Source of the DNA: Pelagibacterales bacterium SAG-MED28
GTDB taxonomy: Bacteria > Pseudomonadota > Alphaproteobacteria > Pelagibacterales > Pelagibacteraceae
Reading direction: 5' to 3'
Length of the DNA: 64,000 nt
NCBI GenBank assembly: GCA_014653835.1
Contig: JACWDY010000001.1
Span: 1-64,000, forward strand
Below, piece by piece: positions 2,807 through 17,475 of the stretch (its first letter is position 1; every line of letters begins with the position of its first letter). Under the pieces are notes generated by a model. That model did not search any database. It was given only the letters and a program-made list of their open reading frames with translations, and was not told where the DNA came from. The translations under genes and the position numbers were made by a program.

Positions 2807-3493
2807 ATGAATAAAAATTCAAAAAGATACAGAGAAATTTTAAAAAATTTTATTAAAGGAAAAAAAGTTGGTTCTAAAGAGGCAATTGAACTTGTCAAAA
2901 AAAACTCCACAGCTAAATTTGATGAGTCAATCGATGTATCTTTAAAGATAAATTTAAAACAATCAAAAGGTGGAGATCTTAGTTTAAGAACAGTTGTTAA
3001 TTTACCAAATGGTTCTGGAAAAAAAAATAAAGTAGCTGTTTTATGTGAACCGGATAAAATTGATGAAGCTAAAGGAGCTGGAGCTGATGTAGTTGGATCT
3101 GATGACCTCATAGAAAAAATCGGTGCAGGAAAATTTGATTTTACAAAACTAATTTGTACACCAGGTATGATGAGTAAAATTGGTAAATACGGAAAAATTT
3201 TAGGACCAAAAGGCTTAATGCCAAATCCTAAATTAGGAACCGTGGCAACTGATATCAAAAAAGCTATAAAAGACATTAAAACAGGTGCAGTTGAAATTCG
3301 AAACGATAAAGATGGAAATCTTGCTTCTACAATTGGAAGAAAAAGTTTTTCTACTGAAAAATTATTAGAAAATTACAATCATTTTATAGAAAGTGTAAAA
3401 AAAGAAAAACCTGATACTATCAAGGGTGAATTAATAAAAGGTACATTTTTAACTTCTACGATGGGTATATCTTATAAAATAGGAGCTAAATAA
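2807..3493 (+). CDS. rplA: 50S ribosomal protein L1
   Basis: L1 signature KIGKYGKILGPKGLMPNPKLGTV. Confidence 0.98.
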   Translation: MNKNSKRYREILKNFIKGKKVGSKEAIELVKKNSTAKFDESIDVSLKINLKQSKGGDLSLRTVVNLPNGSGKKNKVAVLCEPDKIDEAKGAGADVVGSDDLIEKIGAGKFDFTKLICTPGMMSKIGKYGKILGPKGLMPNPKLGTVATDIKKAIKDIKTGAVEIRNDKDGNLASTIGRKSFSTEKLLENYNHFIESVKKEKPDTIKGELIKGTFLTSTMGISYKIGAK

Positions 3494-15820: not shown

Positions 15821-16129
15821 ATGGAAAATCAAAATATAAGAATACATTTAAAAGCTTATGATAATAAAATCCTTGATTTGTCTACTGAGGAAATTGTTAA
15901 TACAGCAAAAAGAACAGGCGCTCAAGTCAAAGGTCCAATACCATTACCAACAAGAATAGAAAGATATACAGTTTTAAGATCACCTCACATTGATAAGAAA
16001 AGTAGAGAACAGTTTGAGTCAAGAACCCACAAAAGATTAATAGATATTATAGAACCAACACCACAAACAGTCGAAGCGCTGATGAAATTAGATTTAGCCT
16101 CCGGTGTAGATATAGAGATAAAAATATAA
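15821..16129 (+). CDS. rpsJ: 30S ribosomal protein S10
   Basis: [40 protein letters not shown]. Confidence 0.98.
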
Positions 16130-16133
16130 ATTT

Positions 16134-16637
16134 ATGAGCATTGGATTGATAGGAACAAAAATAGGAATGACCAGAGAATTTATGGAAGGCGGTCAATCAG
16201 TTCCTGTAACAGTTATAAAAGTAGAAAAAGGAAGAGTTCTGGATGTAATATCTGAAGATAAAAGAGGTTATAGCGCAGTTAAACTCGGCTTTTTTAAACT
16301 TAAAAACTCAAAATTAACAAAACAAATGAAGGGATATTTTTCAAAGAAAAATACTGAGCCAAAAAAAATTCTTAAAGAATTTAGAGTTGAGAATAACGAT
16401 CAATATAAAGAGGGCAATGAATTAGGACTAGAGATTTTCAAAGATAAAAAATTTTTAGATGTAAGGTCAAAAACTATAGGAAAAGGATTTGCCGGTGTTA
16501 TGAAGAGATGGAATTTTGGTGGCTTGAGAGCGTCTCATGGTGTTTCTGTTTCGCACAGATCACATGGTTCAACTGGACAAAGACAAGATCCAGGAAAAGT
16601 ATTTAAAGGAAAAAAAAATGGCTGGTCATATGGGTGA
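16134..16637 (+). CDS. rplC: 50S ribosomal protein L3, N-terminal part; frame breaks at A9 run 16610-16618 and ends with out-of-frame tail NGWSYG
   Basis: [13 protein letters not shown] through [17 protein letters not shown], then non-homologous NGWSYG-stop. Confidence 0.93.
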   Translation: [167 protein letters not shown]

Positions 16638-16839
16638 TAAATTAAGAACTATGTTAAATTTAGAAATAGTTAAATCAGATTTAGAAAATAATTTATTATA
16701 TTTAAAAGGATCAATACCAGGCTCAAAGAATTCAACAGTACTTCTTAGAGAGTCTGTTAAAAAAGTAACTAGAAAAACTATTAAAGAAAAATATGAAGCA
16801 AAAGTTAAAGCAGTTGCTGCCAAGAAAGGAAAAAAATAA
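16618..16839 (+). CDS. rplC: 50S ribosomal protein L3, C-terminal part in the next frame ([39 protein letters not shown]...)
   Basis: Direct continuation of the conserved L3 motif KGKKMAGxMG; ATG at 16618 with AAAGGA upstream; ORF track lists this frame as 16537..16839. Confidence 0.9.
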   Translation: [73 protein letters not shown]

Positions 16840-17475
16840 ATGAAATTTCCTCTTTTGAGTATTGACGGGGCTAAATCAGAGTCAATAGAGATCTCTGATA
16901 AATTAGTTAAATTAAAAGTTAACTACAAATTAATTAAATTTGTTGTTGATTGGCAATTAAATCACGCAAAACCAAGAACAGCTAAAACAAAACAAAGAAA
17001 TGAGATAAAAGGTTCTACAAAAAAGATTGTTCCTCAAAAAGGGGGTGGTGGAGCTAGACACGCTAGTAAAAAAGCTCCATTATTTGTAGGGGGTGGTGTA
17101 GCGCATGGTCCTAAAGGCGCTGTATATAAGATAAAAAAGATAAATAAAAAAGTAAGAAAACTTGCTCTAGCTCAAACGTTATCTAAGAAAAATTTTGATA
17201 AAAATCTACACATCTTAGCTGATGTAAAAAAAGAGATTAAAAAAACAAAAGAATTTAATAAATTCTTAGAATTGAATAAACTAGCCAACGCATTAATAAT
17301 TTCTGATACAGACACAATGAAAAACATTAATAAGTCAGCTCGTAATATTAAAAATATAAAATTAATAAAAGATGAAGGAACTAATATTTATGATTTATTT
17401 AAATACAAAAATGTAATAATCACCTCTTCATCTGCAAAAAAAATACAAGAAAGAATTCTAAATGAAAAAAATTAA
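16840..17475 (+). CDS. rplD: 50S ribosomal protein L4
   Basis: KPRTAKTKQRNEIKGSTKK..QKGGGGARHASKKAPLFVGGGVAHGPK. Confidence 0.97.
   Translation: MKFPLLSIDGAKSESIEISDKLVKLKVNYKLIKFVVDWQLNHAKPRTAKTKQRNEIKGSTKKIVPQKGGGGARHASKKAPLFVGGGVAHGPKGAVYKIKKINKKVRKLALAQTLSKKNFDKNLHILADVKKEIKKTKEFNKFLELNKLANALIISDTDTMKNINKSARNIKNIKLIKDEGTNIYDLFKYKNVIITSSSAKKIQERILNEKN

Follow-up and report, generated by a model that had tools for sequence, protein, structure and literature searches.

The one-base frame break in rplC of a Pelagibacter assembly is most likely an indel error

The rplC locus and its broken frame

The gene for ribosomal protein L3, rplC, occupies positions 16134-16839 of the window, by which we mean the whole 64,000-nucleotide stretch of DNA that was analysed. 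It stands at its S10-operon position with one flanking gene on each side, and its reading frame is interrupted at a run of nine A residues (A9) with GG on its 5' side and TGGCTGG on its 3' side. The features of the locus are as follows.

15821-16129: rpsJ, flanking gene.
16134-16637, plus strand: 5' part of rplC in frame 0, encoding L3 residues 1-161, then NGWSYG and a TGA stop; Pfam Ribosomal_L3, E = 4e-8.
16610-16618, plus strand: A9 run, longer by one A than it would be in an open frame; unique among 169 genomes of the genus, with the in-frame form in 104.
16618-16839, plus strand: 3' part of rplC in the shifted frame, from MAGHMGDK to the stop before rplD; Pfam Ribosomal_L3, E = 2e-5; synonymous and nonsynonymous differences patterned as in intact relatives.
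16840-17475: rplD, flanking gene.

Frame 0 ends at a stop codon at 16635-16637, 167 codons into the gene, and the remainder of L3 is shifted by one base; the shifted frame, part of a mechanically called open reading frame at 16537-16839, runs on to the end of the gene. At this operon position both pieces match the Pfam Ribosomal_L3 family. An earlier sequence-only reading had claimed that an extra A in the run breaks rplC, and the open reading frames, together with the Pfam matches to both pieces, confirm the break and its coordinates. Across the window, A9 or T9 matches number 57, against 49 expected. The A9 run as such is no commoner than chance; the only unusual thing about it is that it breaks the frame of an essential gene.

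Over the 73 codons that follow the shift, comparison with the nearest relative shows 17 synonymous and 8 nonsynonymous changes, inside the range found for intact pairs in the same region (14-30 synonymous and 4-12 nonsynonymous). Thus the 3' part of rplC is not decaying, as the sequence-only reading had also held, and constraint on the gene is normal apart from the break. The indel is therefore either very recent or not real.

rplC in related genomes

The assembly amounts to 995 kb in 42 contigs, is about 89% complete, and, judged by its size, its fragmentation and its relatives, appears to be a single amplified genome. Its close relatives belong to Pelagibacter (SAR11) and are mostly single-cell genomes; the nearest is about 90% identical in DNA and has an intact rplC. 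A pattern search of 169 genomes of the genus found the extra A in this assembly only (1 of 169) and in no other species, and the in-frame pattern at the run in 104. Comparison with close relatives had been put forward earlier as a way to check the break, and all relatives aligned at the A-run site keep the frame (loci L003-L111, several of which are duplicates of one genome). A Pfam search detected L3 in 106 of the 169 genomes; among the matches listed, the L3 frame is open over about 223-261 amino acids except in this assembly and in one other (G046), where rplC runs into the contig end. A DNA search of the assembly, complete to the extent given above, found no second copy of rplC.

Stray one-base indels in this and sister assemblies

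To look for comparable breaks elsewhere, nearly the whole assembly was searched by tblastn with the proteins encoded by three sister genomes. On inspection, four conserved genes held up as broken by a single base each: rplC, gpsA, lon and hflC. The last three are:

Contig C1, about 173,895, minus strand: gpsA (glycerol-3-phosphate dehydrogenase), AAA to AA; relatives intact.
Contig C4, about 9,178, minus strand: lon protease, near the gene start, A7 to A6.
Contig C42, about 407, minus strand: hflC-like gene, near the contig end, T6 to T7.

The conserved coding DNA compared amounts to 570 kb, so the 4 breaks correspond to roughly 1 per 140 kb, a minimum count, as the queries came from three relatives only. 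Benchmarking of the GORG-Tropics single-cell workflow gave a higher published figure, 3.0 indels per 100 kb (PMC11247762). The runs broken in gpsA, lon and hflC are short in the open frame (A3, A7 and T6), and none is a long A run. Conversely, conserved coding DNA of the assembly holds 343 A/T runs of at least nine, and among these the scan found a frameshift only at rplC. Further candidates were discarded: one on contig C23 proved on inspection to be a natural gene boundary, and a glycosyltransferase-like split on contig C4 was put aside as too diverged (about 51% identity).

In the sister assembly G021, of which 591 kb was covered, no hit was accepted as a real frame break. Hits there were reciprocal effects of the broken ORFs of the present assembly or were rejected on inspection; two new hits, on its contigs C3 and C4, were judged to match spurious ORFs or gene boundaries, and another, on contig C4 (54.2 kb), fell in a short, poorly conserved ORF. 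In the S10 operon, 334 kb aligned from 80 sister loci contained two essential genes, rpsJ and rplW, broken once each, or about 1 per 167 kb. At 1 event per 140-170 kb, some 104 copies of a gene of 705 bases should contain about 0.4-0.5 events; the number observed was one.

Individual sister genomes carry lone indels of their own. In the single-cell genome AG-457-M20, rpsJ (S10) has one extra A, A7 to A8 (locus L107, about 1,860-1,870), a close parallel to rplC. In another, AG-916-D16, rplW (L23) has lost one base (locus L099, about 3,430-3,470), and on contig C1 of G055 glmS has gone from C5 to C6 near the contig end (locus L133, about 520-530).

Origin of the extra A

The extra A in rplC is very probably an error of one base that arose in amplification, sequencing or assembly, because more than 100 sister genomes have rplC intact and because the assembly carries other stray one-base indels. 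On this explanation, rplC of this Pelagibacter genome would be an ordinary single-frame gene, and the extra A would be a one-base insertion, introduced presumably during whole-genome amplification, sequencing or assembly. Three observations form its basis: the insertion is unique to the assembly, the gene is otherwise constrained, and further lone one-base breaks occur. Random indels of amplification or assembly would look the same, being unique to one assembly with similar, unrelated indels alongside. Two points count against an error: true mutations, too, would be likely in a homopolymer, and the run is not near a contig end, lying 16.6 kb into a 275-kb contig. The sequence-only reading had set out four explanations and chosen none. 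Its single-base error at a homopolymer gains support, since no relative has the extra A and comparable isolated indels are found, away from long A runs, at other places in this assembly and its sisters, but nothing positive was found for transcriptional slippage, +1 ribosomal frameshifting or a two-piece L3.

The A9 could instead be a real allele whose frame is restored in part of the mRNA by RNA polymerase slippage, as in insect endosymbionts. The AT-rich genome, the run of nine A and the otherwise intact gene would all fit, and slippage at runs of nine A/T is known in bacteria, with 12-50% of transcripts reportedly corrected in endosymbionts (PMC5009743; PMC3017870). However, rescue of rplC would require the loss of one A (or the gain of two), and loss is the rarer direction; among transcription errors of Buchnera, homopolymers held 151 of 157 insertions, as against only 16 of 57 deletions (PMC5574713). 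Frameshifts that slippage made tolerable would be expected to cluster in the longest runs, and this is not what is observed: gpsA, lon and hflC are broken at short runs, where slippage would not help, and rplC alone is broken out of the 343 long ones. Some of the rescued frameshifts known from insect endosymbionts are conserved from one population or species to another (PMC3017870). The rplC frameshift was found in no other genome of the genus and so shows no conservation without decay across strains or species, in a set of 169 that includes no same-species strains. We regard slippage rescue as very unlikely. Were the A9 nonetheless real, slippage-tolerated essential genes would occur also among the most abundant free-living bacteria in the ocean.

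A second possibility is that the one cell sorted carried a real mutation of recent origin, either deleterious or lethal. Homopolymers are mutation hot spots, and each single-cell genome samples one cell, yet on this account a doomed cell would have to be sampled, which is rare, and several unrelated housekeeping genes (gpsA, lon, hflC) would have to be broken in it as well; we consider it highly improbable. Slimmer still are the chances of a two-piece L3 restarted at the ATG at 16618, or of +1 ribosomal frameshifting. The ATG does have AAAGGA upstream, but AAAGG and the ATG are present in most relatives, whose L3 is in one piece; the motif is therefore coding-driven, following from the codons of F-K-G-K-K-M. 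This bears out an earlier caution that the resemblance to a Shine-Dalgarno sequence might be incidental. As for frameshifting, no prfB-type slow stop codon was seen at the shift site, the stop lying six codons past the run. Neither arrangement is helped by an extra A that is common to no relative.

The frame break in rplC is thus most likely not a real feature. A caution follows for genomes of this kind: when indels break the frame of conserved genes about once every 140-170 kb, that is enough to make some essential ribosomal genes appear broken.

Of known systems, the poly(A)-tract frameshifts of Blochmannia and Buchnera, which are rescued by transcriptional slippage (PMC3017870, citing Tamas et al. 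2008), share with rplC an AT-rich genome, an A run, a single frameshift and an otherwise intact gene. In contrast to them, the rplC frameshift is common to no relative, the other frameshifts of the assembly are at short runs, Pelagibacter is free-living with many intact long runs, and the direction needed is a deletion. The isolated indel errors of single amplified genomes offer the other comparison. The rplC case, seen here in assembled sequence, resembles them in its pattern: lone one-base indels, in genes otherwise intact, scattered over essential genes and confined to one assembly each.
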